From: Acidobacteriota bacterium | GTDB lineage: Bacteria > Acidobacteriota > Terriglobia > Bryobacterales > Bryobacteraceae | Assembly (NCBI GenBank): GCA_026393985.1 | Contig: JAPKZB010000074.1 | Span: forward strand, 1 to 64,000 | Reading direction: 5' to 3' | DNA: 64,000 nucleotides | Part shown: in pieces, positions 10,660-52,947 of the stretch | How the letters are laid out: every line of letters begins with the position of its first letter | How positions within the stretch are numbered: position 1 is the first letter of the stretch | The notes under the pieces: generated by a model | Seen by the model: only the letters and a program-made list of their open reading frames with translations | Databases searched by the model: none | Told to the model about the DNA's origin: nothing | Translations under genes and position numbers: made by a program

Positions 10660-10759
10660 CGCCTCCAGGATACTCCAATGTGTCCGGATCGCCTCACGTG
10701 TTGCCGGAAAGACACACTTTTTGGGGTGTAACTAATTTCCTTTCAATTGATTACCATTT

Positions 10760-11665: not shown

Positions 11666-11682
11666 GAATGGCTCGTTGAGTT

Positions 11683-12192
11683 GTGTTCCGCCACATACCG
11701 AACATTCTGACAGTTCTGCGCCTTCTGGGAACCGCGCCTGTGGTCTGGATGATTCTCGAACGCCGGTTTCACTTGGCCTTGGTCGTCTCTTTCCTGATCG
11801 CAGTTACCGACAGTATCGATGGTTGGATGGCGCGTAAATGGAAGCTCGAGTCCCGCTTCGGGGCAATCATGGACCCCCTGGCGGACAAACTCCTTGTCGG
11901 CGGTGGCGTCGTTTCGCTGTGTTTGGTGGGCGCGATGCCGTTTTGGCTGGTGGCGATGGCGCTCCTCCGGGACGGCGCTATTTTGCTGGCGGCAGTGGTG
12001 CTGATGCGGTGGAAAGGGGTGCGCGAATTTCCGCCGTCGCGTCTCGGAAAAGCGAACACATTTATTTTGATGTGTACCGTAGCTGCGGTATTTCTAGATT
12101 TCTACCCTAATGTTTTCTTCGGGATGAGCGCCTGTGCGATTGTTTTGAGCGGGGCGCGGTATGCCTACCTCGGCTTTCGGGCTGCAAAATGA
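11683..12192 (+). CDS. CDP-alcohol phosphatidyltransferase (PgsA-like)
   Basis: A 169-residue membrane enzyme that transfers a phosphatidyl group from CDP-diacylglycerol to an alcohol, most likely glycerol 3-phosphate. The full CDP-alcohol signature is present (DGWMAR, then G, then DPLADK; DGxxAR-x8-GxxxDxxxD), flanked by about four hydrophobic helices. It starts with GTG. The alcohol acceptor cannot be fixed from sequence, so PgsA is likely but not certain. Confidence 0.9.
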   Translation: MFRHIPNILTVLRLLGTAPVVWMILERRFHLALVVSFLIAVTDSIDGWMARKWKLESRFGAIMDPLADKLLVGGGVVSLCLVGAMPFWLVAMALLRDGAILLAAVVLMRWKGVREFPPSRLGKANTFILMCTVAAVFLDFYPNVFFGMSACAIVLSGARYAYLGFRAAK

Positions 12193-12193
12193 A

Positions 12194-12241
12194 TTGACGA
12201 TTGCCCCGCCTGGATATAGTCTGTAGGTAGGTAGATCTACC
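12194..12241 (+). promoter_or_regulatory. Sigma-70-like promoter with palindrome at the transcript start
   Basis: TTGACG (12194-12199) and TATAGT (12215-12220) form a -35/-10 pair with a 15-base spacer. They are followed by the perfect 12-base palindrome GGTAGATCTACC at 12230-12241, just ahead of the ATG at 12245. The palindrome overlaps the place a ribosome site would be and could be an operator. The short spacer lowers confidence. Confidence 0.45.
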
Positions 12242-12244
12242 GCT

Positions 12245-12802
12245 ATGCGCTACACGCCTTCGAAGCAGTATTTGTGGGCCGGTCTTGTTGCTGCCGGACT
12301 TGCGGTGATCTCTACAGTGTTTGCGGCCGAGTGGCCGGCTGCTCTGCTCGCCTCCGTTTTCTGTCTAATTACCGCCGGCTCGGTATTGTTATTAGCTTTT
12401 CGGCCGCCGATTGAGATTCAGGATCAGGCCCTGGTCATAGGCGAACGGACCATTGCGTGGTCCTCCATTGCGCGGGTAGACCGGACCGGGTGGATTTCTC
12501 CCTTAATTGTTCACGTAACCTTGGTGAGTGAAGAGAGAATCCTGATCGTTTTCCCGGGTGATCTCGACGATTCCAACTCCCTCCTGCGTCATCTACGCCG
12601 GAACTCCCGGGAAGCGTTGATCGACGGCATTCCGCACCCCCAGTTTTGGGGAACCACGGTGCCTGTCCCGGACGCGGCCAAATCCGTCGAGGTACCCACG
12701 GTGCACCTGCTTCGACGGGAAGATGAATTGGAAGTCGAACGCTTGTATCAACTTCTGAAGACGGTTGGCCATCTGGACACGCGCCAGCCCGACGAGAAGT
12801 AG
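12245..12802 (+). CDS. Membrane protein with PH-like domain
   Basis: A 185-residue protein with two closely spaced transmembrane helices (about residues 8-28 and 32-52) and a cytoplasmic beta-rich segment, IEIQDQALVIGERTIAWSSIARVDR, that resembles bacterial PH-like domains. The C-terminal part is charged and probably helical. I do not recognise a specific family. The gene is followed after 6 bases by the DUF218 gene. Confidence 0.7.
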   Translation: MRYTPSKQYLWAGLVAAGLAVISTVFAAEWPAALLASVFCLITAGSVLLLAFRPPIEIQDQALVIGERTIAWSSIARVDRTGWISPLIVHVTLVSEERILIVFPGDLDDSNSLLRHLRRNSREALIDGIPHPQFWGTTVPVPDAAKSVEVPTVHLLRREDELEVERLYQLLKTVGHLDTRQPDEK

Positions 12803-12808
12803 TTTTCC

Positions 12809-13396
12809 GTGCGTATTGCCCGGCGCCTCGTCCTGCCGATTGCGTTATGTGCGGTCATCGTCCTCTTGCACGCCCAATGGTTGCCTTCGGTGGCTTGGTT
12901 CCTGGTCCGTGCCGAGGCGCCGCGTCCGGCCGACGCGATCTTTGTGCTGGGGGGGGACCAGTACGGCGAACGGATTCTCCACGCAGCGGCGTTGGCCCGG
13001 CAGGGGCTGGCGTCGAAGGTGTATGTCAGCGGGCCGGCCGGCATCTTTGATCACTACGAAAGCGACCTTTCTATTGCGTTCGCCAGACGGCGAGGCTACA
13101 CCGACGTTACCTTTGTGCCGCTTGAGAACGATTGTAAGTCGACGCGGGAAGAGGCCGAGCGCTACCTGCCGGAGTTTCGGCGGATGGGCTTCGAGCATGT
13201 ACTGGTGGTGACCAGCAACTTCCACACCCGGCGCGCCGGGCGGATTTTCCGCGAGCTGGGGGGCGAACCAGAGATTCACATGATGGCCGCCGCGGCCCGG
13301 GAGTTCCGTCCCGAAGACTGGTGGCGACGCCGGCAGGATCAGAAGAATCTCTTTCTGGAGTGGTCCAAGACATTCGCAAACTGGATCGGGATGTAG
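12809..13396 (+). CDS. DUF218 / YdcF-ElyC-SanA family membrane-anchored protein
   Basis: A 195-residue protein with one N-terminal membrane anchor (residues 5-25) and a DUF218 domain: ADAIFVLGGDQYGERILHAAALARQG, then ENDCKSTREEAERY and LVVTSNFHTRRAGRIFRE. Members such as SanA and ElyC affect envelope integrity and peptidoglycan precursor metabolism. The biochemical activity is not established. The start is GTG. It lies 4 bases before the ABC exporter gene and probably shares its mRNA. Confidence 0.85.
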   Translation: MRIARRLVLPIALCAVIVLLHAQWLPSVAWFLVRAEAPRPADAIFVLGGDQYGERILHAAALARQGLASKVYVSGPAGIFDHYESDLSIAFARRRGYTDVTFVPLENDCKSTREEAERYLPEFRRMGFEHVLVVTSNFHTRRAGRIFRELGGEPEIHMMAAAAREFRPEDWWRRRQDQKNLFLEWSKTFANWIGM

Positions 13397-13400
13397 CGGC

Positions 13401-15143
13401 ATGTGGCAAGCCATCCGTTTCCTTTGGCCGTATCTGGACCGCCATCGGCGGCAGTTGCTGCTGGGCCTGGGTGCGTTGGTGCTCAATGCCCTCTTCGGCG
13501 CCACTCTGCCGCTGATGATCCGGCGGGGCATCGACTCAATCACCGCCGGCGAGCCCTGGCGGGTGACGGCCTGGGCGGCGGGCGCGCTGCTGGGTCTGGC
13601 CCTCTGCAAGGGCATCTTTCAATACTGGAAGCGCTGGATTCTGATCGGCGTGTCGCGCGATCTGGAATACGATCTCCGGAACGACATTCTGGCGCACCTG
13701 CTGGGGATGGGCCGCGATTTCTACGGTCGTTTTCCAACCGGCGATATCATGGCCCGGTCGACCAACGATCTCAATGCGGTCCGCATGATGGCGGGGCCCG
13801 GCCTGATGTACTGCGTGGAGACCCTGCTCATTTTTGTCCTCGCCTTTGCCGTGATGGTCTCGGCCGATCCGGTGCTGACCCTCGCCGCGCTGGCCCCGGC
13901 GCCGGTGATCAGCTTCCTGGTGGTCTTCTACGGCCAGCAGATCCATACCCGGTTTGAAGAGATCCAGACCGTGTTTTCCACCATCTCGAGCCGGGTGCAG
14001 GAGTCGATCGCCGGCATGCGGCTGCTCCGCGCCTACGGGCAGGGCGAGGCCGAGCGGGACCGCTTCGCCGAACTCAATCAGGACTACATTCGCCGCAACC
14101 TGGATCTGGTCCGCACGACCGGCGTCTTTGAGCCGCTGCTCCATGCCTTGACCGGCATCGCCTTCCTGATCGTTCTCTGGGTGGGCGGTCTGCGCGTGCT
14201 CGAAGGCCGGATCTCGCTCGGCAGCTTTGTGATGTTTCAAACCTATGTCGGGATGCTCATCTGGCCGATGATCGCCATGGGCTGGGTGATCAACCTGCTG
14301 CAGCGCGGCACGGCCTCACTCGATCGCATCCGGGAGATGCTCAACGTGGCGCCTTCGATCGCGGCGCCGGCGCAGCCCCACCCGCTGCCGGAGGCCCTGG
14401 CGGGGGAGATTGAATTCGACCATGTCGAACTGCACTATCCGGCCGGAGAGGCCTTGCGGGGGGTGAGCTTCCGCGTCGCCGCCGGAGAGACGGTGGCGAT
14501 TGTGGGCCATACCGGATCTGGAAAAACTTCGCTGACGCAGATGGTGCCGCGCCTGCTCGATCCCACCGGGGGCACGGTCCGGGTGGATGGGGTCGATGTG
14601 CGGGAGTACGATCCGGCGGCCCTGCGGCGGCAAATCAGTATCGTGCCGCAGGAGACGTTTCTGTTTTCGATGACCCTGCGGGAGAACATCGCCCTCGGCC
14701 GGCCGGGGGCCACCGAGGACGAGATCGCCCGGGCGGTGGCCGTGGCCGGGCTCACCGGCGATGTCGCCGGCTTTCCGGCGGGTCTCGATACTCTGATTGG
14801 CGAACGCGGTATCACCTTGTCTGGCGGGCAGCGGCAGCGGGCGGCCATTGCACGCGCCGTATTGCGCGACCCGCGGATTCTGATTCTCGATGATTCCCTG
14901 TCGAGTGTCGATACCGTGACCGAGGCGAAAATTTTAGCGGAGTTGGGCGCCGTGATGAAAGGAAGAACCACGCTGCTCATTTCGCATCGCGTTTCGACGA
15001 TTCGTTATGCCCATCGGATTGTCGTGCTGGCACGCGGCGAAATCGTGGAAATGGGCAGTGCCGAACAGCTTTTGGCGCGCCAGGGTTACTTCGCCGATCT
15101 GGTCCGGAAACAGCAACTCGAAGAGGAGATCGAAGCCCTCTAA
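13401..15143 (+). CDS. ABC exporter half, degenerate Walker B (YheI/TM287-like)
   Basis: A 580-residue ABC half-exporter with six membrane helices (about residues 15-310) fused to an ATPase domain. Walker A is GHTGSGKTS and the signature LSGGQRQR is intact, but Walker B reads LILDDSLSSVDTVTEAKIL, with Asp where the catalytic Glu normally is. That is the hallmark of the non-catalytic subunit of heterodimeric exporters (YheI, LmrC, TM287). Such proteins pair with a canonical half normally encoded next door; no partner follows here. It could export drugs or lipids; the substrate is unknown. Confidence 0.9.
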   Translation: MWQAIRFLWPYLDRHRRQLLLGLGALVLNALFGATLPLMIRRGIDSITAGEPWRVTAWAAGALLGLALCKGIFQYWKRWILIGVSRDLEYDLRNDILAHLLGMGRDFYGRFPTGDIMARSTNDLNAVRMMAGPGLMYCVETLLIFVLAFAVMVSADPVLTLAALAPAPVISFLVVFYGQQIHTRFEEIQTVFSTISSRVQESIAGMRLLRAYGQGEAERDRFAELNQDYIRRNLDLVRTTGVFEPLLHALTGIAFLIVLWVGGLRVLEGRISLGSFVMFQTYVGMLIWPMIAMGWVINLLQRGTASLDRIREMLNVAPSIAAPAQPHPLPEALAGEIEFDHVELHYPAGEALRGVSFRVAAGETVAIVGHTGSGKTSLTQMVPRLLDPTGGTVRVDGVDVREYDPAALRRQISIVPQETFLFSMTLRENIALGRPGATEDEIARAVAVAGLTGDVAGFPAGLDTLIGERGITLSGGQRQRAAIARAVLRDPRILILDDSLSSVDTVTEAKILAELGAVMKGRTTLLISHRVSTIRYAHRIVVLARGEIVEMGSAEQLLARQGYFADLVRKQQLEEEIEAL

Positions 15144-15263
15144 CCCGCGAGACCCTCCGGCGTGCTATTTTTAAGATCTGTAGCATCTGTTGTTGTGTCC
15201 GGTTCATTCCCATCGTTCGATCCTGCCCAACCAGCCGCTCTGCATTTCTCAAGGAAAGTAAAA

Positions 15264-15593
15264 ATGACAAATATTTTTGTTGGAAACCTGAGTTTTCATA
15301 CCACCGAGCAGAACCTCCGCGCGTTGTTCGAGCAGTTCGGCACAGTGGATCGTGTGAGTCTGGTCACAGACCGCGAAACCGGAAAAGCCCGTGGATTTGG
15401 CTTTGTCGAGATGGCCCAGAAGGCCGAAGCCGAGAACGCGATTGCCTCGTTGAACGGCCGGGAGTTGGATGGACGCGCCATCAATGTGAATGAAGCCCGC
15501 CCGAAGGAAGATCGTGGTGGTGGCGGCGGTGGTGGCTATCGCGGCCGGAGCGGCGGCGGTGGCGGCGGCGGCCGGCAGGGCAACCGCTGGTAG
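15264..15593 (+). CDS. RRM RNA-binding protein with glycine-rich tail
   Basis: A 109-residue RNA-binding protein. One RNA recognition motif fills residues 1-80, with RNP2 IFVGNL and RNP1 ARGFGFVEM. The C-terminus is an arginine/glycine-rich tail with two runs of glycines ending in GNRW. The ATG at 15264 is preceded by AAGGAAAG, a strong ribosome site. Such small RRM proteins are often cold-induced RNA chaperones in bacteria; induction is not demonstrated here. The 120 bases upstream show no coding potential and may hold its leader. Confidence 0.92.
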   Translation: MTNIFVGNLSFHTTEQNLRALFEQFGTVDRVSLVTDRETGKARGFGFVEMAQKAEAENAIASLNGRELDGRAINVNEARPKEDRGGGGGGGYRGRSGGGGGGGRQGNRW

Positions 15594-15610
15594 CCTGCTC
15601 CGTCTCATAA

Positions 15611-15655
15611 AAAAACCGGGCCGCAGCCTTCACAAGCTGCGGCTTCGCTGTGTGG
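15611..15655. terminator. Hairpin with flanking A-run, possible terminator
   Basis: An 8-bp stem GCCGCAGC / GCTGCGGC (15620-15627 with 15636-15643, 8-base loop) follows the RRM gene. An A-run lies before it and GGTTT after it, so an outer AAACC/GGTTT pairing is also possible. Read on the minus strand it ends in a run of Ts, which would terminate antisense transcription; on the plus strand the T-tract is weak. Confidence 0.45.
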
Positions 15656-15779
15656 TTTCAGTTACAATAGACTCTTTGTGTGTTCAGGTCAGCTCTGTCC
15701 TATCTCGTCATCGCCAGTGCATCCAGTTGGCTCCAGTGAAACCAGTTGGCCTTCCGACGCGTCCCCCGAGAGTCGCAAA

Positions 15780-18716
15780 GTGAAAAGGATCTATCGATTC
15801 ATGATTTCTTCCGGGCTCGCACGCCTGCTCCTCTTTGCGTTCATCGTTCAGGTTGTCGCGTTGCGCCTCGGCTGGGCCCAGCAGCCTCCTCAGCCCCCTG
15901 CGCCGAAACCTGCTGCCCCCAAACCGGCCAACCCGTTTGAAAGCGTCCCCACGGCCCCCACCGAAGCGCCCAAGCCAGCGCCCGTCAAACCGGGGTTGAT
16001 CGCGCCGGCCAAACCAGGCCAGGTTGATGACGTGATTGAACTCATCGAGTTCCGCGGGGCCCGCCGTGTTCCGCAAGATACGCTTCGAGCGATGATCTTC
16101 TCAAAGAAAGGCGATAAGATCGACGAAGACGCCCTCCATCGGGACTTCATGTCGCTCTGGAACACGGGGCGGTTCGACGATATTGTGCTCGAGCGCGAAC
16201 CCGGCCGGACCGGATACATCATCCGCTTTGTGGTCGTTGAACGCCGCATTGTTCGCTCCATCCGTTATGAGGGCGCCAAGTCGCTGACTGTTTCCGAAAT
16301 TCTCGACCGGTTCAAAGAGCGCCGCGTTGGCCTGTCGGTCGAAGCCCAGTATGATCCGAACAAGGTCCAACGAGCCGCCATTGTCTTGAAGGAGTACCTG
16401 GCTGAGCGCGGCCGGCAGTACGCCACCGTCGAGCCGGACCTGCGCCAGATTCCTCCCTCCTCGATGGAGGTCGTCTTTAAGGTGGACGAGGGACCAAAGG
16501 TCAAAGTGGGCGCCATCAATCTCGATGGCAACAAAGTGTTCTCCGACCGGGCCGTGCGTCGGGCCATGCGGAGTCTGCGGCCGATCGGCATTCCCCGGTC
16601 CATCCTGTTTGAAAATCTGTTTGCCAAGACGTTTGACTCAACCAAACTCGAACAGGACAAGCAGATGATCGTCAACTTCTATCAGGAGAAGGGCTACTTT
16701 ACGACGCGAACGGGTGATCATACCGTGAAGATTCGCGACGTTGGCGGTAAAGGCCTCCGCATTCCTTTGTTCTATCCGAACAAGCCGGGCAAGCGGGCCG
16801 ATGTGACCATTCCCATCGAAGAGAGCCGCCTGTACCGGTTGAACAAGTTGAACGCCGTCGGCATGAAGCTGTTCCGCACCCCGGAAGCCATTCTCCCGCA
16901 GGTCTACGGCATGAAAGAGGGCGACCTCTTCTCGATCGCCAAGCTGCGCAAGGGCATGGAACAGATCCGGAAGCTATACGGCGAGTTCGGCTACATCGAC
17001 ATGGTGCCGGAGCCGGATATCCAGCCGCAGCTCGGAACCGACAAGATCGATCTGACCATCAATGTCGATGAAGGCAAACAGTTCTTTGTGCGCCGCATCG
17101 ATTTTTCGGGCAACGTGACTACCCGCGACAAAGTGATCCGTCGCGAACTCTTGGTGGATGAAGGCGACCAGTACTCGACGCGCCTGTGGGAGCTCTCGCT
17201 TCTGCGTTTGAACCAACTCGGCTACTTTGAAGCCCTGAAAGAGAACGAAGCCGCAGAAATCAAGCGCGACACCCGGACCAACAGCGTTGACATCACTTTG
17301 AAAGTGAAGGAGCGGGGTAAGAACTCCGTGCAGCTGTCGGGCGGCGTCTCCGGCATTTCGGGCTCCTTTGTCTCGTTCGGCTATTCGACCAACAACTTCC
17401 TCGGTTTGGGTGAGACGCTCGGCATCAGCAGCCAGTTGGGCGACCGCATCCGCGACGTGACCTTCTCCTTCACCGAACCCTACCTGTTCGACAAGCCGAT
17501 TCAGGCCGGTTTCACGGTCTACATGCAGCGCTTCAACTACGACCAAGGACGGGAAGTCTCGCTGCTTTCGGGCCGCAACCTGATTCCTTACTACCAGGCT
17601 CTCGGCACCCAGAACCTGCTCAATTATGTGACAAATGGCATGGGTTTCACGGCGTTCGCCTCGACGCAGTTGAAACGTTCTTTTGCCCGCGTCAGCATGA
17701 CCTACGGCTACGATGTTTCGACCGTGAAGACGCTGTCGGAGGCTTCGAGTAACTATTTCAACTTCCTCTCCTTCCAGCGGACCGACGGGCCTAACCAGTT
17801 GGACGGCATCCGGACGAGTAAGGTGATCCCCTCCTACAGCTACAACACCGTCGATCACCCGATCACCCCGACGCGGGGTCGCAGCCTTTTCATTTCAACG
17901 ACGTTCGCCGGCACCTTCATGGGTGGTAACGTGAACATGGTGGAACCGACCATCAGCTCGACCTACTTCCGTAGCGGCTTCAAGAAGGGGCACGTGATCG
18001 GTATGCGCGGCTTGGGCAGGCTAATCTCCGGCTACGGCGGGCGCGTGGCTCCTCCTTTTAATCGCATCTTCATGGGCGGTGAAAACGATATTCGCGGCTT
18101 CGACATCTGGGGCATCTCGCCGATCTCGTTCATCCCAAGCGAGGCTAGCGTGGCGGTGCTGAACGATGACGGGTCGGCCCGCTTGCAGAAAGTACTGCAG
18201 GATGGGGTGGAAACCTTCGTCCCGGTGGCGCAGCGCATCCCGGTGTATCAGTTGACGACCACCGGCGGCGACACGCAGCTGATCGGGAACTTCGAGTACC
18301 GAATTCCGATCTTTGGGCCGGTGGTTCTCGCTGCCTTCTTTGATGCCGGTGTGAACCGCATCTCCCTCAAGAATCAACTCCGCCTCAACCCGCGCCGCGT
18401 GGAGGAGTTGAACAGCCTGTTCCCGCAGGCGGGTTTCAATCAGCAGATTCCAGTGAATACGGAAACGGAAAAGATGCGCATGTCGACCGGTCTTGAAATG
18501 CAGATTATGATGCCGGTGGTGAACGCGCCGTTCCGTTTCTATTGGGCGTACAACCCGACCATCGTACAAACCTTCCTGCAGCCGCCCGTCGTACTCGATC
18601 GGTCGCAGTTCCCCAACCAGCAGACCTTTGTTAATTCCGTGGTGCAGTGGGGTCAGGCGACTCCGTTCTTCGAACGGCGGCGCGTATTCCGGTTCACCAT
18701 CAGTCGAACCTTCTAG
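15780..18716 (+). CDS. bamA: Outer membrane protein assembly factor BamA
   Basis: A 978-residue Omp85 protein that inserts beta-barrels into the outer membrane. A signal peptide ending LGWAQ is followed by a proline/alanine-rich linker (about residues 36-75), five POTRA-like repeats to about residue 530 and the C-terminal 16-strand barrel. The conserved lid-lock loop is seen as DIRGFDIWG near residue 770. The last residue is Phe (SRTF), as expected for an outer-membrane barrel. GTG at 15780 behind GAGAG is chosen because it adds a basic n-region; ATG at 15801 also works. skp follows directly. Confidence 0.95.
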   Translation: MKRIYRFMISSGLARLLLFAFIVQVVALRLGWAQQPPQPPAPKPAAPKPANPFESVPTAPTEAPKPAPVKPGLIAPAKPGQVDDVIELIEFRGARRVPQDTLRAMIFSKKGDKIDEDALHRDFMSLWNTGRFDDIVLEREPGRTGYIIRFVVVERRIVRSIRYEGAKSLTVSEILDRFKERRVGLSVEAQYDPNKVQRAAIVLKEYLAERGRQYATVEPDLRQIPPSSMEVVFKVDEGPKVKVGAINLDGNKVFSDRAVRRAMRSLRPIGIPRSILFENLFAKTFDSTKLEQDKQMIVNFYQEKGYFTTRTGDHTVKIRDVGGKGLRIPLFYPNKPGKRADVTIPIEESRLYRLNKLNAVGMKLFRTPEAILPQVYGMKEGDLFSIAKLRKGMEQIRKLYGEFGYIDMVPEPDIQPQLGTDKIDLTINVDEGKQFFVRRIDFSGNVTTRDKVIRRELLVDEGDQYSTRLWELSLLRLNQLGYFEALKENEAAEIKRDTRTNSVDITLKVKERGKNSVQLSGGVSGISGSFVSFGYSTNNFLGLGETLGISSQLGDRIRDVTFSFTEPYLFDKPIQAGFTVYMQRFNYDQGREVSLLSGRNLIPYYQALGTQNLLNYVTNGMGFTAFASTQLKRSFARVSMTYGYDVSTVKTLSEASSNYFNFLSFQRTDGPNQLDGIRTSKVIPSYSYNTVDHPITPTRGRSLFISTTFAGTFMGGNVNMVEPTISSTYFRSGFKKGHVIGMRGLGRLISGYGGRVAPPFNRIFMGGENDIRGFDIWGISPISFIPSEASVAVLNDDGSARLQKVLQDGVETFVPVAQRIPVYQLTTTGGDTQLIGNFEYRIPIFGPVVLAAFFDAGVNRISLKNQLRLNPRRVEELNSLFPQAGFNQQIPVNTETEKMRMSTGLEMQIMMPVVNAPFRFYWAYNPTIVQTFLQPPVVLDRSQFPNQQTFVNSVVQWGQATPFFERRRVFRFTISRTF

Positions 18717-18753
18717 TACAATCAACTTAACGTAATCCAGGAGCTTTCCCACT

Positions 18754-19335
18754 GTGAATCGCCAGATCTTGTGGCTGCCCGCCCTCTTGTTGGGCGCTGG
18801 AATCAGCCTTTTCGCTCAAACCGCCCCCTCCAAGGTCGGTATCATCCACATCCAGAACGCCATTATCGGTACCAAAGACGGTCAGACCGCCGCCAAGGCC
18901 CTTGAAGAGAAGTTCATGCCGCGGCGCAAGGAAGTGGAAAAGAAGCAGGCCGATATCGCGGCGTTGCAGAACCAGCTCCGCGCCTCTTCGAATACGGCCA
19001 GCGAGGATGTGAAGAACAAGCTGATGCGTGATATCGACGCTAAGCAGAAATCCTTGCAGCGCGATGCTGAAGACTTTCAGGCGGAAGTGGACGCTGAACA
19101 GCAGAAAGTGCTCGGCGAGTTGGGCGGCAAGATCATGGCCGTCATCGACAAGTACGCCACCGATAATGGCTTTGCGATCATCATCGACGTTAGCTCGCAG
19201 CAGAGCCCGGTGTTGTATGCGGCTACTTCGATCGACATCACCCGCGAAGTGGTCGGTCTCTACGACAAAAACGCCCCGTCGGCGGCGCCGGCAGCGCCCG
19301 CTCCGGCTAAGAAAGCCACGCCCGGCGCGAAGTAA
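18754..19335 (+). CDS. skp: Periplasmic chaperone Skp/OmpH
   Basis: A 193-residue exported chaperone that carries unfolded outer-membrane proteins across the periplasm. A signal peptide ends LFAQ; VGIIHIQNAI is the usual first strand; residues 45-130 are charged coiled-coil tentacles; a C-terminal globular strand returns near ATDNGFAIIIDVS. An Ala/Pro/Lys tail follows and is unusual. It begins with GTG behind AGGAG. Its place after bamA is the classical arrangement. Confidence 0.92.
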   Translation: MNRQILWLPALLLGAGISLFAQTAPSKVGIIHIQNAIIGTKDGQTAAKALEEKFMPRRKEVEKKQADIAALQNQLRASSNTASEDVKNKLMRDIDAKQKSLQRDAEDFQAEVDAEQQKVLGELGGKIMAVIDKYATDNGFAIIIDVSSQQSPVLYAATSIDITREVVGLYDKNAPSAAPAAPAPAKKATPGAK

Positions 19336-21011
19336 TGCGGCTGGCTCCTCTGGTTTTCGCCTTGGCTTGGCCCTTGGCGGCCCAGAAACTGGAGAAACTG
19401 TTCGAACAGGAATGGGAGAGGTCCTTACGGATCTCTCCCATTTTTGCGTCGACGATGGGCGAACGGCGCTACGCGCAGCGTTGGCCCGATCTGTCGCCCG
19501 CCGCCCTGGAGCGAGACTACAAAGATACCAAAGCCGCCTTGGCGCGCCTGCGCTCCCTGCCGGCCGTCCCGGCCGAGGCGGTGAACCGCGCCGTGTTTGA
19601 GCGGATGCTCTCCGAACAGCTCGAAGAGTACGAGCTGGGTTGGCGTTTTGTGCCGATCAACATGCGCGACGGCATTCAGAATACCGCCGAGCTGGCCAAC
19701 CTGCTTCCGTTCCGCGACGAGCGGGACTATCGTGACTGGCTCGCCCGGCTGCGGGCGTTTCCGGTCTACCTGGACCAGACGATCGTCCTGATGCGCGAAG
19801 GGATGCGGCGGAAGCTGGTGCAGCCGAAGATTGTCATGCAGCGCGTGCCGGGGCAGATTGAGCGGCAACTGCGGTCGAACCCGTTTCTGGTTCCGTTTGC
19901 CTCCCAGCCCCCTGTTTTGCGAAACGAAGCCAAACTCGTTATCGAGACCGCCGTCTTTCCGGCCCTGCGCCGCTTGCAGCATTTTCTCGAGACCGAGTAC
20001 CTGCCTGCGTGCTACGACGGCGCCGGGATCTGGCAGGCGCCGGAGGGAGCCCGGCTCTATGCCTATTTCGCGCGCAGCTTCACGACCACGGGCCTGACCC
20101 CGGACGAGATTCACGAGATCGGCCTTGGCGAAGTGGCCCGCATCCGGGACGAGATGCACGGGGTAATGCGCAAGACGGGATATTCCGGGACGTTGCCCGA
20201 GTTTTTCCACCATCTCCGGACCGATTCGCGGTTCTTCTACCCCTCCAGCGCCGAGTTGTTGGCCGGTTACCGGGCCGTGGCCAAGCGGATCGATCCGACG
20301 CTCGTGAAGCTGTTCGGGAAGCTGCCGCGGATGCCCTACGGGGTGGAACCGATTCCAGCCGAGATCGCGCCCGACACGACGGCGGCCTACTACCAGCCCC
20401 CGGCCGGGGACGGATCACGCGCCGGGATGTATCACGTCAACCTGTACAAGCCGGAGCTGCGGCCGAAGTGGGAGATGATGGCGCTGAGTCTGCACGAGGC
20501 CGTGCCGGGCCATCATACGCAGATCGCCTACGCCCAGGAGCTGGGCGAAGTGCCAAAGTTCCGCCGTTTTCAAGCCAGCTTTACGGCCTACGTGGAGGGT
20601 TGGGCGCTCTATGCCGAAAGCCTGGGAGATGAGTTGGGGCTCTATGACGATCCGTACGCCAAGTTCGGGCAGCTGACGTATGAGATGTGGCGGGCGGTGC
20701 GCCTGGTGGTCGACACCGGCATCCATCACAAGCGCTGGACGCGGCAGCAGGCGATTGATTACTTCCTGGCCAACGCGCCCCGCAGCGAGCTGGACGTCAC
20801 CAACGAGATCGACCGCTATATCGGCTGGCCCGGCCAGGCGCTGGGCTACAAGATTGGCGAGCTGAAGATCAAAGCCCTGCGCCGGAGGGCGGAGGCGAAG
20901 CGGGGCGCCCGGTTCGAGGTCCGCGCGTTTCACGATGTGGTCTTATCGACCGGTGCGGTGCCGCTGGACGTACTCGAAAAACGGGTGGAGGAGTGGATGA
21001 ATGCCAACTAA
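19335..21011 (+). CDS. DUF885 family secreted zinc metallopeptidase-like protein
   Basis: A 558-residue exported protein (signal ending PLAAQ) of the DUF885 family. The zinc-type motif LHEAVPGHH lies near residue 385 and a downstream glutamate-bearing TAYVEGWALYAESL completes the gluzincin-like site. It is predicted to hydrolyse peptides in the periplasm; no substrate is established for this branch. The start codon overlaps the skp stop (TAATG), indicating translational coupling, so it may serve envelope protein quality control. Confidence 0.88.
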   Translation: MRLAPLVFALAWPLAAQKLEKLFEQEWERSLRISPIFASTMGERRYAQRWPDLSPAALERDYKDTKAALARLRSLPAVPAEAVNRAVFERMLSEQLEEYELGWRFVPINMRDGIQNTAELANLLPFRDERDYRDWLARLRAFPVYLDQTIVLMREGMRRKLVQPKIVMQRVPGQIERQLRSNPFLVPFASQPPVLRNEAKLVIETAVFPALRRLQHFLETEYLPACYDGAGIWQAPEGARLYAYFARSFTTTGLTPDEIHEIGLGEVARIRDEMHGVMRKTGYSGTLPEFFHHLRTDSRFFYPSSAELLAGYRAVAKRIDPTLVKLFGKLPRMPYGVEPIPAEIAPDTTAAYYQPPAGDGSRAGMYHVNLYKPELRPKWEMMALSLHEAVPGHHTQIAYAQELGEVPKFRRFQASFTAYVEGWALYAESLGDELGLYDDPYAKFGQLTYEMWRAVRLVVDTGIHHKRWTRQQAIDYFLANAPRSELDVTNEIDRYIGWPGQALGYKIGELKIKALRRRAEAKRGARFEVRAFHDVVLSTGAVPLDVLEKRVEEWMNAN

Positions 21012-47068: not shown

Positions 47069-48294
47069 AAAAAATATCGCAGACTAGCTGGATTTTTATC
47101 GCCATGGTGGCCGGCATCGCGCTTGGCTTTTTCGCGCCAGAGTTTTCAAAAGAGCTCTCGCCGATCTACAAGATCTTTATCAACCTCATCAAGAGCATCA
47201 TCGCCCCGCTGCTGTTCGCGACGCTCGTCTATGGCATCGCCAGTTCGGGCAACGTCAGCACCATGGGCCGCATCGGCGGCAAGGCGATCCTCTACTTTGA
47301 AATCGCGACGACGCTCGCGCTGGTGGTCGGCCTGTTCGCGGTGAATCTCATCCAACCCGGCGTCGGCCAGCATATCGACCCGGCCAAGGTCGCCTCCACC
47401 AACCTCCCCACGCAGAAGACGCAGACGCTCACCCAGATTATCGAACACGCCTTCCCCTCCAGTGTCATCGACGCCATGGCCAAAGGCGACGTGCTGCAGT
47501 TGGTGGTCTTCTGCTTCCTGTTCGGCACGGCCTGCGTGGCCGTGGGCGAAAAGGCGAAGTTCATCGTGGAGTGGTGCGAGTCGCTCGCCGAGGTGATGTT
47601 CAAGTACACCTCCTATGTCATGTATCTCGCGCCCCTCGCCGTGGGCGCAGCGATTGCCGTCACCGTGGGCACCTACGGCGTGGGCATTCTGAAGACGCTC
47701 GGCCTGCTGGTGCTCACCGTCTTCGGCTCGCTCGTCTTCTTCGTCGTGTGCATTCTCGGGCCAATTGTTTACCTGTCGAAGATTCCGCTGGGCCGCTTCA
47801 TCGAAGCCGTCAAGGAGCCCTGGCTGATTGCGTTCTCGACGGCGAGTTCGGAAGCCGCGCTGCCCAAAGCGCTCGAGAACATGGAGCGCTTCGGCGTGCC
47901 CAAGCACATCGTCAGCTTCGTGCTGCCCACCGGCTATAGCTTCAATCTCGACGGCTCCACGCTCTACCTCGCCGCCGCCAGCATCTTCTGCGCCCAGGTG
48001 GTCGGCATGGAACTCACCGTTGGCACGCAGGTCATGCTGATGCTCACCCTGATGTTGACGAGCAAGGGCGTGGCCGGTGTCCCCCGCGCCTCGCTCGTCA
48101 TTCTCGCCGGCACCATCGCGGCGTTTAACATCCCGCCTGATGGCATTGCGCTCATTCTGGGCGTCGATGCGATTCTCGACATGGCCCGCACCTCCGTCAA
48201 CCTCCTCGGCAACTGCCTGGCTTCGGCCGTGGTGGCCCGTTGGGAGGGGGTCGATTTGAGCAAGGCCCCGGAGCCGGTCGCCGAAACCGTCTAA
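47065..48294 (+). CDS. Dicarboxylate/amino acid:cation symporter (DAACS)
   Basis: A 409-residue glutamate-transporter-fold protein. HP1 FSTASSEAALPKALENME, the NLDGSTLY motif and the HP2/TM8 region AGTIAAFNIPPDGIALILGVDAILDMARTSVNLLGNCLA are complete. It imports glutamate, aspartate or C4-dicarboxylates with H+ or Na+. ATG 47065 behind GGGGAG overlaps the nadK stop. Confidence 0.93.
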   Translation: MKKISQTSWIFIAMVAGIALGFFAPEFSKELSPIYKIFINLIKSIIAPLLFATLVYGIASSGNVSTMGRIGGKAILYFEIATTLALVVGLFAVNLIQPGVGQHIDPAKVASTNLPTQKTQTLTQIIEHAFPSSVIDAMAKGDVLQLVVFCFLFGTACVAVGEKAKFIVEWCESLAEVMFKYTSYVMYLAPLAVGAAIAVTVGTYGVGILKTLGLLVLTVFGSLVFFVVCILGPIVYLSKIPLGRFIEAVKEPWLIAFSTASSEAALPKALENMERFGVPKHIVSFVLPTGYSFNLDGSTLYLAAASIFCAQVVGMELTVGTQVMLMLTLMLTSKGVAGVPRASLVILAGTIAAFNIPPDGIALILGVDAILDMARTSVNLLGNCLASAVVARWEGVDLSKAPEPVAETV

Positions 48295-48303
48295 CGGCGC
48301 TCG

Positions 48304-49287
48304 CTACCCCCGGCGCCGCGACGGCCGCGCAATGCCGGAACCAGCCCGGTCGCTCCCCTCGGCTCGGCTTGAGAACGCATACAGGTGGACGTACCGGTCC
48401 TCGGCCCACAGCGCTCCTCCGCAGGCCTTGGCGCCCGCGATCCGCACGTCTTTGCCCAGCCCCACCGCCGGCACGGCGAACGCGGGCGCTTTCACTACCG
48501 CCCGGACGAAGCTCCCGAGCCGGTCCGAAGAGACCGGGCGGACCGTCGAAGGCTCCGTATCGATCGCGTCGAGCGCATACCCTCGCAACAGCCGCGGGAA
48601 GACCCGCTCGAACGACGCCGCATGGTCAAACAGGTCGATGCCCCACCTCTGGCCGCCAATGCAGTACAGCACCCCCGTCTGCCCCGGCGCCCACGCAAAG
48701 GCCCGCAGATAGTGCTCCACCGAATCCCGGTGCTGCTCGAACATGGCCCGCATCGCGCCCGTGCCCGACGTCGTCCGCAGCCGTCCGGCCTTCAAGGCGA
48801 TGTCCTGCCACACCTGGTTCTGATCCGAACGCCGGTGGCCCTCCTCCCGGATGGACTTGGAAACCTGCCGGGCCCGCGCCTCGCGCGCCGAAGCGTACTG
48901 CACCGCATCCGCCGCCCGGAACTGCGCCGAGACGTTTTGCCACCGTCCGGCCTCGACGCAGGAGACCGGAATCTTGATCGCCGACCGGGCCGGAGCCAGA
49001 ATCGAGAGATTCAGCACCCGGTTCTGTTTGGCGCCCACCAACTCCTCGCCATCCAAAAGCAGCACCGGGAGCGGGGCGCTGTTCTCGAATTGCAACTCCG
49101 GGACCGAGCCGCCGTGGCTCACCTCGGTCACCCGCGCCAGGCCCCGCTCCATCGCCTCTTCGAGTAAAAGATAGCCAGGCTCCGAACGCGCCGGCTTGAG
49201 CCGGAACATCGGAAAGAGCGTCAGATGCTGGAAACCGGTCGGATCGCCGAGCCGCATGCCAGCCAGTAGTTCTTGAATCGAAATCAT
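48304..49287 (-). CDS. ARPP-1-like protein (DUF6569-type)
   Basis: A 327-residue soluble protein I recognise as the ARPP-1 family (ADP-ribosylglycohydrolase and rhodanese-phosphatase associated). Core: GFQHLTLFPMFRLK, YLLLEEAMERGLARVTEVSHGGSVPELQFEN, LLDGEELVGAKQNRVLNLSILAPA and IPVSCVEAGRW, with the C-terminal half (GVLYCIGGQRWGIDLFDH) also typical. No enzyme motif is obvious; the DGEELVGAKQNR stretch could bind nucleotide. It is the third minus-strand gene of the cassette, with its own sigma-54 promoter and 5' hairpin. The last residues are a basic, probably disordered tail. Confidence 0.85.
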   Translation of the reverse strand: MISIQELLAGMRLGDPTGFQHLTLFPMFRLKPARSEPGYLLLEEAMERGLARVTEVSHGGSVPELQFENSAPLPVLLLDGEELVGAKQNRVLNLSILAPARSAIKIPVSCVEAGRWQNVSAQFRAADAVQYASAREARARQVSKSIREEGHRRSDQNQVWQDIALKAGRLRTTSGTGAMRAMFEQHRDSVEHYLRAFAWAPGQTGVLYCIGGQRWGIDLFDHAASFERVFPRLLRGYALDAIDTEPSTVRPVSSDRLGSFVRAVVKAPAFAVPAVGLGKDVRIAGAKACGGALWAEDRYVHLYAFSSRAEGSDRAGSGIARPSRRRG

Positions 49288-49288
49288 T

Positions 49289-49315
49289 GGGACAGTGCCT
49301 CCAGTTGCACTGCCC
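49289..49315 (-). promoter_or_regulatory. 5'-terminal mRNA hairpin holding the ARPP-1 Shine-Dalgarno
   Basis: On the minus strand GGGCAGTGC pairs with GCACTGTCCC (one bulged T); the GGAGG ribosome site of the ARPP-1 gene lies in the loop and at the right edge of the stem. The predicted sigma-54 start (about 49313) falls at the first bases of the stem, so the mRNA would begin with this hairpin. Confidence 0.55.
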
Positions 49316-49323
49316 TATAGAAA

Positions 49324-49340
49324 GGCAAGCCGCCTACCAA
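49324..49340 (-). promoter_or_regulatory. Sigma-54 (-24/-12) promoter of the ARPP-1 gene
   Basis: Minus strand TTGGTAGGCGGCTTGCC. It has GG and GC exactly 10 bases apart and matches the consensus TGGCACG-N4-TTGC at TGG, A, G and TTGC. Predicted start about 49313, 26 bases before the ATG. The upstream neighbour encodes a sigma-54 activator. Confidence 0.75.
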
Positions 49341-49381
49341 ACAGATTGCTTCGAGAAATCAATAACTTAGAGTCTGGCTTG

Positions 49382-49429
49382 GTCGTCCGCCGACAACGAA
49401 AAGTGACGCTTCGTCAACCGTTGTTGTCG
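49382..49429. promoter_or_regulatory. Palindromic elements, candidate enhancer sites (UAS)
   Basis: GTCG-N5-CGAC (49382-49394), CGACAAC (49391-49397) inverted with GTTGTCG (49423-49429), and TGACG-CTT-CGTCA (49404-49416) lie about 70-115 bases upstream of the predicted start, the usual position for enhancer-binding-protein sites. The region overlaps the 3' end of the regulator gene, so coding constraint is a confounder. Confidence 0.45.
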
Positions 49430-50997
49430 TCCTCTCCCCGCAGGATCCGGCTCACCGCTTGTTTGGTGATCCCCAGCATCTCTGCCGCTTTCGTCTGGTT
49501 GTCGCCGCAGCGTTCCATCGCCCGGTTGACCAACTGCCGTTTGGCATCAGCCAGAAATGCCTTCAGTTGAAACCCCGGCCCCGGCTCCGGCAGCTTGGTC
49601 CATCCGCCGCCGGCCACCATGCGGATGGGGAGCTCAAGATCCTTGGCCCGAATCACGCCGCCGCTCGAAAAAATGGCCGCCCGTTCCAGCACGTTCTGCA
49701 GCTCTCGCGTGTTCCCCGGCCAGTCGTGCGTCACCAGGCGCTCGAGTGCTTCGGCGGTCAGCTGCCGCGGCTGCTGGTAGCGCTGATTGATCTGCCGGAG
49801 CAGTACCGCGGCGAGTTCCGGGATTTCGGCCGGCCGCTGCCGCAGCGGGGGGAGCTTGATCTCGACCACGGTGAGCCGGAAAAACAGATCCTCCCGGAAT
49901 CGGCCCGCGGCAATCTCCGCCTTCAGATCGCGATGCGTGGCGGCCAGGATCCGCACATTCACCTTCTTGATGGGCCCACCCACCACCTCTATCTGGCTCT
50001 CCTGCAGCGCGCGCAAAATCTTCGCCTGAATGCCAAGGTCCAACTCGCCGATCTCGTCAAGGAAGAGCGTGCCGCCGTCTGCCGCTTCGAACTTGCCGGT
50101 CTGGTGGTTCACCGCCCCGGTGAAAGAGCCTTTCCGGTGGCCAAACAGATGGCTTTCTGCCAGGTCCTTCGGGATCGCGGCGCAATTGACCGGCACCAGG
50201 GGCTGGCTGGCGCGGTCGCTCATCCGGTGAATAAACTTGGCGAACATCTCTTTGCCCGTGCCGGTCTCCCCGGTCAGAAGAATCGGGGCGCTGGGGTGCG
50301 CCCCGGCGATCGCGGCGCGTTCGAGGGCATCGCGCATCCGCGCCGAACCGATGAACAGGTTCAACTCCCGCCGGGCCGCTTCGATCTTCTGGTTGCTGGT
50401 CTGTTCGGCGGGCGGCGCCGAGGCGTTCAGCGCCACGTGCGTAGCCTCGATTTCATCAATTCGCTCGCCAAAGAACTCCTGCGGCATCACCAGGTCAGCC
50501 AGGCTGCGCCAATCGTCCTGCTCGAAGCAGACCTCCTTGACGTGGGCGGCGCCGAACAGCGGTTCAATGGGAGAACCGATCTGCAGCATGGTTGCCGGCA
50601 GGAACCCGGAGGCGATCAACACAAACCAGGCCGCGCGCATCTCGGCCGTGCCGCTTGAAACGCACACGTATCGGTCGGCTTCGGCGGACGACTCCCAGCG
50701 CACCTCGGCTAAGAACCGCGCCAGACCGCCCATCAGCGCCGAGTAGTCCTTGGGATCGGGTACCGGCAGCTCCTGCAGGGTCAACCGACAGGCCGGAAAG
50801 CGTTGTCTGATCTCTTCGCCGGTAGCCACGGCGTTGGTCAGGGTGTGGGGTGTGTAGACGAGATACACCCGGTCGAAGTCCTTGGAGGCGAGCAGCGACA
50901 GAACCGGGCCGCTCTGCTCCCCGCCCGCGATCTCGTTGGGTGCAAACGGATCTTTCGGATCCACGAACGCGAAGAGCGTCTTGCCGGTAGGCGGCAT
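49414..50997 (-). CDS. RtcR-like sigma-54 enhancer-binding protein with probable CARF sensor
   Basis: A 527-residue sigma-54 activator. Residues 1-175 (DFDRVYLVYTPHT, YVCVSSGTAEMRAAWFVLIASGF) look like the CARF ligand-sensing domain of RtcR rather than a response-regulator receiver. AAA+ domain: Walker A GETGTGKE (about 242-249), GSFTGA (about 292, usually GAFTGA), Walker B GGTLFLDEIGEL and RFREDLFFRL. C-terminal Fis-type helix-turn-helix NQTKAAEMLGITKQAVSRIL. It should activate the sigma-54 promoter of the following ARPP-1 gene. It starts 7 bases after the ADP-ribosylglycohydrolase stop. Confidence 0.88.
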   Translation of the reverse strand: MPPTGKTLFAFVDPKDPFAPNEIAGGEQSGPVLSLLASKDFDRVYLVYTPHTLTNAVATGEEIRQRFPACRLTLQELPVPDPKDYSALMGGLARFLAEVRWESSAEADRYVCVSSGTAEMRAAWFVLIASGFLPATMLQIGSPIEPLFGAAHVKEVCFEQDDWRSLADLVMPQEFFGERIDEIEATHVALNASAPPAEQTSNQKIEAARRELNLFIGSARMRDALERAAIAGAHPSAPILLTGETGTGKEMFAKFIHRMSDRASQPLVPVNCAAIPKDLAESHLFGHRKGSFTGAVNHQTGKFEAADGGTLFLDEIGELDLGIQAKILRALQESQIEVVGGPIKKVNVRILAATHRDLKAEIAAGRFREDLFFRLTVVEIKLPPLRQRPAEIPELAAVLLRQINQRYQQPRQLTAEALERLVTHDWPGNTRELQNVLERAAIFSSGGVIRAKDLELPIRMVAGGGWTKLPEPGPGFQLKAFLADAKRQLVNRAMERCGDNQTKAAEMLGITKQAVSRILRGEDDNNG

Positions 50998-51004
50998 AGT
51001 ACCG

Positions 51005-52168
51005 CTATCCCTGGCGCCCGAGCGCCAGCAGACGCTCGGCCAGCCGCAGTGCGTCGACGGGCCAAAACCACTCCGGCCGTGGCGTATCCACCCCCGGCAT
51101 CCCATCAATCGGCCGGCACGTCAATACCCGCTCCTGCCATTGCCAGGGGATGGCGTCTCGGCCGAAGGCGGCGCCGAGCAGGGCGCCGGCAATCGCCCCG
51201 TTGGTGTCGGTGTCGCCGCCCGCCATCACCGTATCCACGATCCCCTCCTCGGCGTTTTCTGCGTGCAGCAGCTGCCAGAAGGCGTTCTGCAGGGCGATCA
51301 GCACCCATCCCTGATTGGTCCCGTAGTCGGCCGGGCGCTCGTGCGCCGCCTTCGCGATGGCCAGGGTTGCGGCTTCTGGCGTTGCTGCGGTTTGCGCGGC
51401 CAGCAGAGCGAAATCGTAAATCTCCTGCCGGCCGGCGCCGGAGCGTATGGCAAAGGCAGTCGTCTCGACAAAAATCCGGCTCGCGTGCCGGCAGACCGGA
51501 TGGGGGTGGCTCAGGCCGGTGTCCTGCATCGCCCACTCTCCGCCCTCGCCTGCCCTCCGGCCTGCCACAAAAATAGCCAGCGGGCTGACGCGCATCAGGG
51601 CGCCGTTCGATTGAGAATGCGACAGCGCCGCGTTTCGGGCCGCCGCGGCGCCCGGCTGGCCCGTCCGGATGGCCTGCGAGGCCGCCTGCACGGCCGCCCG
51701 CGTGGTCGTACCGATATCGAACGGGTGGGAATCGAACCACCGGCCGTAGGCTTGCGCCGCCGCCTCCTCATCGTAGCCTTCGCTCATAATGATCGACCGG
51801 GCCAGCAGCAGCGCCATCTCCGAGTCGTCGGTCGGCTGCCCGGCGAGGATCCGCCAGACGCCGCCATCGGTCAACTCCCGTACGCCTCGCGGGTACTGAC
51901 GTTCGATGTCGGCGGCCCGGCGGAACTCCACCAGCCCGCCGAGATTATCCCCGGCCAACTGTCCCAGCAGGCAACCCTGCGCGCGGGCGAGCATGCCGGC
52001 ATCCGGTACCGTCCGGCCTCGCGCGAACTCGAGCAGCGGATACCATGGCACGGCGCTACCCCGGCGCCGGTGCACCGCGGACCAGTCTCGCGTGGCCAAC
52101 TCCGCGGCGATCGCCTCCGCCCCCCCCGTAACAGCGGCCGCCGCAGCCACTATTGCCATCCGCGGCAT
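51005..52168 (-). CDS. ADP-ribosylglycohydrolase, C-terminal half of an IMPase fusion
   Basis: An ADP-ribosylglycohydrolase (ARG/DraG) domain that removes ADP-ribose from a target using two Mg2+. All metal-ligand motifs are present: GCLLGQLAGD, TDDSEMALLLARSI and GGDTDTNGAIAGALLGAAFG. The domain proper begins near the ATG at 51994; residues upstream (AEAIAAELATRDWSAV) are the continuation of the phosphatase. The first in-frame ATG, 52168, lies in sequence that reads correctly in the phosphatase frame, so independent initiation is unlikely to be intended. Restoring one base in the 52120-52127 run makes a single 616-residue protein with the next entry. Confidence 0.88.
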   Translation of the reverse strand: MPRMAIVAAAAAVTGGAEAIAAELATRDWSAVHRRRGSAVPWYPLLEFARGRTVPDAGMLARAQGCLLGQLAGDNLGGLVEFRRAADIERQYPRGVRELTDGGVWRILAGQPTDDSEMALLLARSIIMSEGYDEEAAAQAYGRWFDSHPFDIGTTTRAAVQAASQAIRTGQPGAAAARNAALSHSQSNGALMRVSPLAIFVAGRRAGEGGEWAMQDTGLSHPHPVCRHASRIFVETTAFAIRSGAGRQEIYDFALLAAQTAATPEAATLAIAKAAHERPADYGTNQGWVLIALQNAFWQLLHAENAEEGIVDTVMAGGDTDTNGAIAGALLGAAFGRDAIPWQWQERVLTCRPIDGMPGVDTPRPEWFWPVDALRLAERLLALGRQG

Positions 52169-52856
52169 ACCGAATCGGCTGGCCCTCCCAGTTATACAGA
52201 TCGAGCCCGGCGCCCAGCAGCAGGGCATGGCCCCCGGCGTAGTCCCAGCCCACGGGATTGTTCGTGGAAACCGCGGCCAGCGCCTCTCCCGCCGCGACCA
52301 GCGCGAGGCGGTAGGCGATGCTCGCCACGGCGCGGTAGCGATGCGGGGCCGCCAGTCGCGCATTCGCTTCGGGATTCTTATCCGCGTCCTGCGATAACAG
52401 AATCGTCTTCGGGAGCGACGCTGCGTCCCCCACCACCGGCTGGCGGTTGCGCTGCACCGGGCCCAACCCCTCGGCCCAGGTGAACAGATCGCCGTTGTCG
52501 TCGGGCGCGGCGTAGGCGTAGACCACCCCGAGCACCGGCCGGCCATCGCGCAGCAGCGCAATCGACACCGACGCCCCCCGGCCCCCTTTCTGGAAGGAGG
52601 AAGTCCCGTCATTGGGATCGACCAGCCAAAGATGCCGTTCCTCGTCGCCGGGAGAGTCAACTAAGTGAAGCTCCTCGCCGTGGTAACCGTAATCGGGAAA
52701 CGCCGTCTTCAGACTCCGGTAGATCTCTCTTTCGGTGGGCGTATCGTAATCCTCCCCCTCGTGCGAAGCGCCATGAAACGCTTTCCGTAGATTCGCTCCG
52801 GCGCACAAAGCAGTCTCGATGGCACACTCCAACGCCGCCCGGTAGTTAGTTTGCAT
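52056..52856 (-). CDS. Inositol monophosphatase-like domain, N-terminal half of the fusion
   Basis: An IMPase-fold phosphatase (FIG superfamily, which also holds CysQ and 3'-nucleotidases). Metal ligands are in GEELHLVDSPGDEE, in VDPNDGTSSF (DPxDGT), and in GWDYAGGHALLLGAG. It is predicted to remove phosphate from a sugar- or nucleotide-phosphate. The frame is good to CYGGG and then runs into 20 residues of nonsense, whereas the ARG frame picks up without a gap. ATG 52856 is used. It is the first gene of the cassette. Confidence 0.82.
   Translation of the reverse strand: MQTNYRAALECAIETALCAGANLRKAFHGASHEGEDYDTPTEREIYRSLKTAFPDYGYHGEELHLVDSPGDEERHLWLVDPNDGTSSFQKGGRGASVSIALLRDGRPVLGVVYAYAAPDDNGDLFTWAEGLGPVQRNRQPVVGDAASLPKTILLSQDADKNPEANARLAAPHRYRAVASIAYRLALVAAGEALAAVSTNNPVGWDYAGGHALLLGAGLDLYNWEGQPIRYAADGNSGCGGRCYGGGGGDRRGVGHARLVRGAPAPG
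52120..52127 (-). other. Poly-G(8) frameshift site at the phosphatase/ARG junction
   Basis: Eight consecutive Gs on the minus strand (TAC-G8-CGG). With G7 the two flanking domain frames join as CYGGAEAIAAELA; with G8 the phosphatase stops at 52056. Either a sequencing error, a phase-variable tract, or a transcriptional slippage site. Confidence 0.8.
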
Positions 52857-52888
52857 ATCCGTATCAGTAAATCGGTCTCTAAGATCGT

Positions 52889-52909
52889 AACACTGGTCAG
52901 GCCAGTGTT
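52889..52909. promoter_or_regulatory. Perfect inverted repeat upstream of the cassette
   Basis: AACACTGG-N5-CCAGTGTT, 8-bp arms, 33 bases upstream of the phosphatase-ARG start and 53 before the divergent metalloprotease gene. It is a good operator shape; with no T-run it is not a terminator. Confidence 0.6.
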
Positions 52910-52947
52910 TAGCTCGGCGCAGGCTATCTCCCGGGAACGCCATCTGA

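Follow-up and report, generated by a model that had tools for sequence, protein, structure and literature searches.

The genes considered here lie on the minus strand of the window, by which we mean the whole analysed stretch of 64,000 nucleotides (contig JAPKZB010000074.1, positions 1 to 64,000) from a bacterium of the family Bryobacteraceae, phylum Acidobacteriota, whose genome comprises 5.9 Mb over 96 contigs and is 97.9% complete. Between positions 48304 and 52856 this strand carries an ARPP-1 protein, a sigma-54 activator, an ADP-ribosylglycohydrolase (ARG) domain and an IMPase domain, and the same-strand arrangement described in a first-pass annotation of this DNA is thus borne out. The ARPP-1 protein (48304..49287, minus strand; 327 amino acids) matches PF20208 (= DUF6569) over the full length of the family (E 1e-90, positions 2-297 of 297), and its closest named relatives are found in Acidobacteriota. 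It is preceded by the gene of a CARF-sigma-54 activator of 527 amino acids (49414..50997, minus strand; ATG at 50997, end at 49414), which combines a CARF, an AAA+ and a Fis-type helix-turn-helix (HTH) domain. Two putative control elements lie 5' of ARPP-1 on the same strand, namely a sigma-54 type -24/-12 promoter, TGGTAGGCGGCTTGCC, at 49324..49339, 52 bp from the ARPP-1 start, and tandem activator-site-like repeats, GACAAC-N4-GTTGAC-N15-GTTGTC, at 49392..49428.

The activator matches the Pfam families PF00158 (2e-62) and, above its cut-off, the RtcR domain PF06956 (5e-9); it contains the Walker A motif GETGTGKE and the loop GSFTGA. Together with its AAA+ interaction domain and Fis-type HTH, a sigma-54 factor encoded in the same genome identifies it as a sigma-54 activator. 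The sensor domain comprises residues 1-166 (50500..50997, minus strand), as delimited by alignment and model, and an S-x-G-T motif is invariant in the alignment of 13 sensors. Its predicted structure (pLDDT 77.9, pTM 0.79) has 61 matches in the PDB at E<=0.001, the best of them Csm6 (4.6e-9). Among the matches listed (best 50 of 61), all are CARF-type proteins, including Csm6, Cam1, Cad1, Can2, Cdn1, Card1, Csx1 and the ring nuclease Sso2081. The sensor therefore appears to adopt a Rossmann-like CARF fold, as the first-pass annotation had suspected for the N-terminus of the regulator. Searching 396 genomes of the phylum with this sensor returned 12 matches, i.e. the window itself, G081 and ten weak ones.

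The association of this type of activator with ARPP-1 recurs. A scan of a genome collection with two peptide patterns yielded 486 relatives of ARPP-1, and among the best 80 loci, which were analysed further, a CARF-type activator is adjacent to ARPP-1 in 12 and an activator fragment in one more (L067), giving 13. The pairs span two phyla, Acidobacteriota and Gammaproteobacteria (a proteobacterial class), with the activator upstream and on the same strand in the former and divergent in the latter. Within the order, represented by 220 genomes, 50 of which have ARPP-1, each of the six strong sensor matches (E<1e-70) is immediately 5' of ARPP-1; three of these loci (G010, G599 and G568, identical to L066, L068 and L069) had been counted already. 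The conserved unit is the CARF activator plus ARPP-1. Of the co-occurrence expected of the whole cassette, this half recurs in 13 of the 80 loci, and the half that concerns the IMPase-ARG gene does not, being confined to G010 and the window among the 220 genomes of the order. Gene calls were made with a simple in-house caller and contain some errors, and two loci (L121 and L139) have no call for ARPP-1.

The region 5' of ARPP-1 distinguishes paired from unpaired loci. We scanned 250 bp of it for sigma-54 sites in 79 loci (L121, which has no upstream DNA, was excluded), and the five best scores belong to the five gammaproteobacterial pairs, which carry TGGCAC-type sites 47-57 bp before the ARPP-1 start. 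A score of at least 15 within 80 bp was obtained for 10 of the 13 non-redundant paired loci (one per near-identical set, with L066, L079 and L083 left out) and for 1 of the 66 unpaired ones (Fisher 2e-9). Of the 10 acidobacterial pairs, 7 have GTTGWC repeats at a distance of 20-22 bp from each other, accompanied by partners resembling GACAAC, and such twin repeats occur in none of the 66 unpaired loci and none of 3038 random windows. The full site pattern, with up to two mismatches, is found at a single place on both strands of the 5.9 Mb genome, 5' of ARPP-1, and there is none 5' of IMPase. The locus L161, examined after the motifs had been chosen, has both of them, with a 22 bp spacing and the promoter 28 bp before the start. 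A looser pattern (GTTGWC twice, 21 bp apart) was set aside as not specific on its own, since it matched 30 places in the genome and its reversed control 11.

We consider it likely that the two genes form a switch, in which a CARF-gated sigma-54 activator induces ARPP-1 as its output. The CARF domain would keep the AAA+ domain of the activator off until a nucleotide-type signal is bound; by extension from RtcR this would most likely be either a cyclic oligonucleotide or a piece of RNA that ends in a 2',3'-cyclic phosphate, arising from RNA damage or infection. The ligand-bound activator would bind the twin sites at 49392-49428 and open the sigma-54 RNA polymerase at 49324-49339, whereupon ARPP-1 would be made. 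This proposed wiring of activator, promoter and ARPP-1 is supported by conserved sequence. In the window's lineage, the IMPase-ARG gene, 7 nt upstream of the activator, would probably be co-transcribed with it, adding ADP-ribose removal and phosphatase activity. The inducible stress or defence response envisaged at the outset fits these results, and the difference in promoter frequency (10/13 versus 1/66) adds to it.

Several observations weigh against this interpretation. The matrix used for sigma-54 scoring was built on a general consensus, and these same loci had already been seen when the twin-site motif and the threshold score of 15 were picked. Three acidobacterial pairs (L068, L069 and L090) fall below the promoter cut-off, and the twin spacing is absent from L069, L100 and L025 as well as from all five gammaproteobacterial pairs. 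In the window, the first half of the activator site overlaps the end of the activator coding sequence, and a reversed control of the full site pattern also matched once in the genome. The loop of the activator reads GSFTGA rather than GAFTGA, the usual form in sigma-54 activators. None of the 17 weaker sensor matches in the order adjoins ARPP-1, and most ARPP-1 loci have a different regulator (of the MerR type in 22) or none that we recognised. Finally, the 10 genes that flank the cassette in the window include no clear defence gene according to PADLOC, the only hit being one weak methyltransferase-type match (2e-7).

As regards the other neighbors of ARPP-1, the commonest among the best 80 loci is a divergent MerR-type regulator (22/80, e.g. 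L119:7766-9758), mainly in Gemmatimonadota and Gammaproteobacteria, followed by an adjacent WYL protein in five, a nearby ECF sigma factor in three and Csm6 in one, each class having been assigned through its resemblance to one or two representatives. One locus, L069, has both an adjacent WYL protein and the CARF activator. In Bryobacterales, genes of SbcD-like phosphoesterases adjoin ARPP-1 or lie near it (L073, L078 and L081).

The remaining part of the block encodes the ARG domain (51005..52006, minus strand), in the frame of an open reading frame at 51005-52660 whose stop codon is 7 nt upstream of the activator ATG, and an IMPase/CysQ-like domain (52056..52856, minus strand; ATG at 52856). 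Both are clear members of their families (PF03747, 9e-59, and PF00459, 1.6e-26, respectively). The ARG motifs GD..G, TDDSEM and GGDTDT, whose metal motifs had first been described as intact, are present, and so are the IMPase motifs GEE, DPxDGT and WDxA. For the IMPase domain the NCBIfam models of CysQ and HisN outscore that of inositol phosphatase, all of them under their curated cut-offs, and the closest solved structures to the ARG domain are dinitrogenase-reductase glycohydrolases. The two domains had been described as a fusion, and here the evidence is divided. In the window their reading frames differ, diverging at a G run (52120..52127, minus strand), and the IMPase frame ends at 52056, past the break, so that no single polypeptide is encoded; this reflects a true frameshift, a pair of overlapping genes or an error in the assembly. 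In a relative of the same genus (L066, i.e. G010), on the other hand, IMPase and ARG form one uninterrupted frame, and the fusion is therefore real in this lineage. Moreover, since 10 of the 220 genomes of the order, G010 included, contain IMPase-ARG at full length in one match, it constitutes a genuine gene family, some members of which (e.g. L168) have degenerate IMPase motifs. In three genomes (L164, L166 and L168) the IMPase-ARG gene adjoins a similar protein of 67 amino acids (MAI-SA--R---VYVYDERGR). A palindrome 5' of IMPase, AACACTGG-CCTGA-CCAGTGTT, was dropped as a candidate element, as it is not conserved in L066.

The block has a distinct distribution in the genus, where ARPP-1 is present in 2 of 19 genomes. 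All 19 have a homolog of the SDF transporter that flanks the block at one end, and 14 have one of the oxidoreductase at the opposite end; in eight genomes, including the window and G010, the two are close on one contig, and we read the interval between them in the remaining six. In G016, DNA matching the window ends at 48292 and picks up again at 52943, with 847 bp of different sequence in place of the block (48293..52942, no strand assigned). In the other five the match picks up again only near 54000, and the interval contains several other genes in four and a short stretch in one (L179). The block 48293-52942, which contains the entire cassette, thus behaves as one unit, acquired or lost in full, at a site of variable content. 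Some relatives have kinase-like and ECF-like sigma genes at this site, as judged by eye.

This behavior, together with the 7 nt between the ARG stop and the activator start, could be taken to favor the explanation proposed originally, in which all genes make up one cassette for NAD/ADP-ribose detoxification: ARG and IMPase would clear (phospho-)ADP-ribose adducts, ARPP-1 would treat the ribose thus set free, and all genes would be induced by the CARF activator on sensing an ADP-ribose derivative. Systems of ARG, phosphatase and ARPP have indeed been described (PMC9503650). However, we regard this as unlikely. Among the 10 genomes of the order with full-length IMPase-ARG, ARPP-1 is adjacent only in G010, to which the window adds a broken copy, the nine other fusions not being near ARPP-1; all three genes occur together in 2 of the 220 genomes, the window's own included. 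Elsewhere among the 80 loci, acidobacterial CARF-ARPP-1 pairs have no detected IMPase or adjacent ARG (a distant ARG lies about 6 kb off in L074), the activator-site pattern precedes ARPP-1 and not IMPase, and the fusion is out of frame in the window. A response centered on NAD-derived modifications rests on ARG, which is lineage-specific here, and this component of the original proposal is not upheld.

It could also be argued that the activator is an RtcR ortholog and its operon one for RNA repair in which other genes have taken the place of the repair enzymes, as it has the RtcR Pfam domain and the same architecture. We find this decidedly improbable. The protein scores 316 bits with the NCBIfam RtcR equivalog, against a cut-off of 650, and a search of the genome to which the window belongs, 97.9% complete, found no RtcB (PF01139), whereas the same search found it in 9 of 14 control genomes; with no RtcB found, RtcAB-mediated RNA repair is unlikely.

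All ten acidobacterial activators linked to ARPP-1 group in a single clade of the activator tree (100/99), whose sister clade comprises L172, L173, L174, L056 and L059; of these, L172 and L173 precede type I restriction genes, which speaks against RtcR orthology, L174 precedes a helicase gene, and L056 is beside an AAA ATPase gene. One of the relatives L172, L173 and L174 belongs to the genus of the window. The gammaproteobacterial ARPP-1-linked activators fall into another clade (100/99), which includes L057, an activator that precedes HsdR- and HsdM-type genes. As each activator lineage groups with restriction-linked activators, the pairing with ARPP-1 probably arose at least twice. The ARPP-1 tree separates the acidobacterial and gammaproteobacterial groups and places L138 apart from the other gammaproteobacterial pairs, its deep forks being weak; it is based on 62 rows, with the ranges of L086 and L096 shortened, L084, L097, L111, L120 and L139 taken out, and 14 more loci of the 80 (including L090 and L100) absent. 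That the two genes are mere chance neighbors, the activator controlling something else and ARPP-1 just happening to lie downstream, would agree with the frequent presence of ARPP-1 beside other regulators, but is scarcely credible in view of the pairing in two phyla and two orientations, the sigma-54-like promoter in most pairs and the twin sites in most acidobacterial ones.

ARPP-1 is best read as the induced output of a CARF-sensed response to infection or RNA damage, and it would likely act, as an enzyme or by covalent binding, on signal molecules or nucleic-acid damage that contain ribose. Six residues (C110, E112, R115, W116, Q156 and H301) are invariant in 62 aligned sequences, a set compatible with an active site, and covalent sugar chemistry via Cys has been suggested for ARPP (PMC9503650). 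The confident model (pLDDT 92.1) has no significant match among PDB folds (best E 0.28) and none at E<=0.001 among the viral folds of BFVD (best 0.033), and the best E in a profile search of PDB sequences was 0.15. A hairpin (49290..49315, minus strand) that ends 2 nt 5' of the ARPP-1 ATG, with a Shine-Dalgarno-like GGAG in and beside its loop, might possibly exert translational control; its stem recurs in L066, and its stability (-16.1 kcal/mol, z -1.7) was equalled by 12 of 200 shuffles and is not significant.

Several ARPP-1 loci have defense genes nearby. In L131 (Thiorhodococcus minor, 9980-20737) ARPP-1, preceded by a sigma-54-like promoter, is followed by DruH3 (1.4e-85) and DruE3 (E=0) of Druantia III; DruE3 is found next to the activator in L077, one protein of L079 matches models of Mokosh and Cas4, and one of L138 has a TIR-like start. 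On a betaproteobacterial contig (L130:1563-5607) ARPP-1 lies between Cas1 and a Csm6-type HEPN protein, whose CARF part was assessed by eye. With the ARPP-1 of L131 as a query, we obtained three weak matches in plasmids and no match in phages. It is tempting to generalize, albeit tentatively and with less conviction than for the switch itself, that ARPP-1 is an effector or signal-processing enzyme, with a fold new to the PDB, of CARF-governed antiviral and RNA-damage responses, independent of ARG, which CARF sigma-54 activators would have recruited on at least two occasions and which is found once beside Csm6. By analogy to ring nucleases it may act on the CARF ligand, or else on damaged RNA or DNA ends.

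No tested function of ARPP-1 was reported in the literature searched, in which DUF6569, PF20208 and "ARPP-1 domain" are unmentioned, as is ARPP-1 together with ADP-ribosylglycohydrolase. A 2023 work by Burroughs and Aravind presumably treats the ARPP-1 family and may describe some of these contexts. CARF sigma-54 activators of defense genes are already known. The RtcR-like defense activators of PMC4012209 (Makarova 2014) and PMC11090510 (CoCoNuTs) share the CARF-AAA+-HTH architecture, also occur near restriction or Druantia III genes, and have a similar proposed ligand, RNA with cyclic phosphate ends; apart from the CoCoNuT paper and its preprint, no paper in the literature searched has RtcR together with Druantia. 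They differ in that the target here is ARPP-1, which is not named in the text of PMC11090510, that twin sites and a promoter are located, and that the acidobacterial ARPP-1-linked activators form a clade of their own. The likeness to Druantia type III lies in L131, where ARPP-1 has DruH and DruE after it in the same orientation; the scanned genes of the window have no Druantia match.

The first-pass annotation did not take account of the ARG-centered anti-ADP-ribosylation systems with fused phosphatases and ARPP (section 3.8 of PMC9503650). Like the window, they have the ARPP family, ARG and a phosphatase coupled to ARG, the IMPase and ARG of the window being out of frame. However, they use rhodanese-type, calcineurin, HD or HAD phosphatases rather than IMPase, and more than 42% have a Nudix or WYL negative regulator, in contrast to the CARF-sigma-54 activator adjoining ARPP-1 here; moreover, ARG is dispensable for the CARF activator-ARPP-1 pair. 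The RtcR-rtcBA system of E. coli likewise has a CARF sensor and a sigma-54 promoter 5' of effector genes (PMC9650030), differing in RtcB and in the equivalog score as given above. There, RtcAB are reported to bind the CARF domain of RtcR, and tRNA fragments to bind the isolated CARF domain but not to activate RtcR in vitro; by analogy, ARPP-1 might bind its own activator.

What is new is ARPP-1 as a probable target of such activators, marked by a predicted promoter, with IMPase-ARG added in one lineage. With 486 relatives in one genome collection ARPP-1 is widespread, and the combination of a promoter, an enhancer-like site and a CARF sensor makes its inducing signal testable. The pair offers a small system for learning what RtcR-like CARF domains sense, and it would tie CARF signaling to a protein family so far connected with ADP-ribose.

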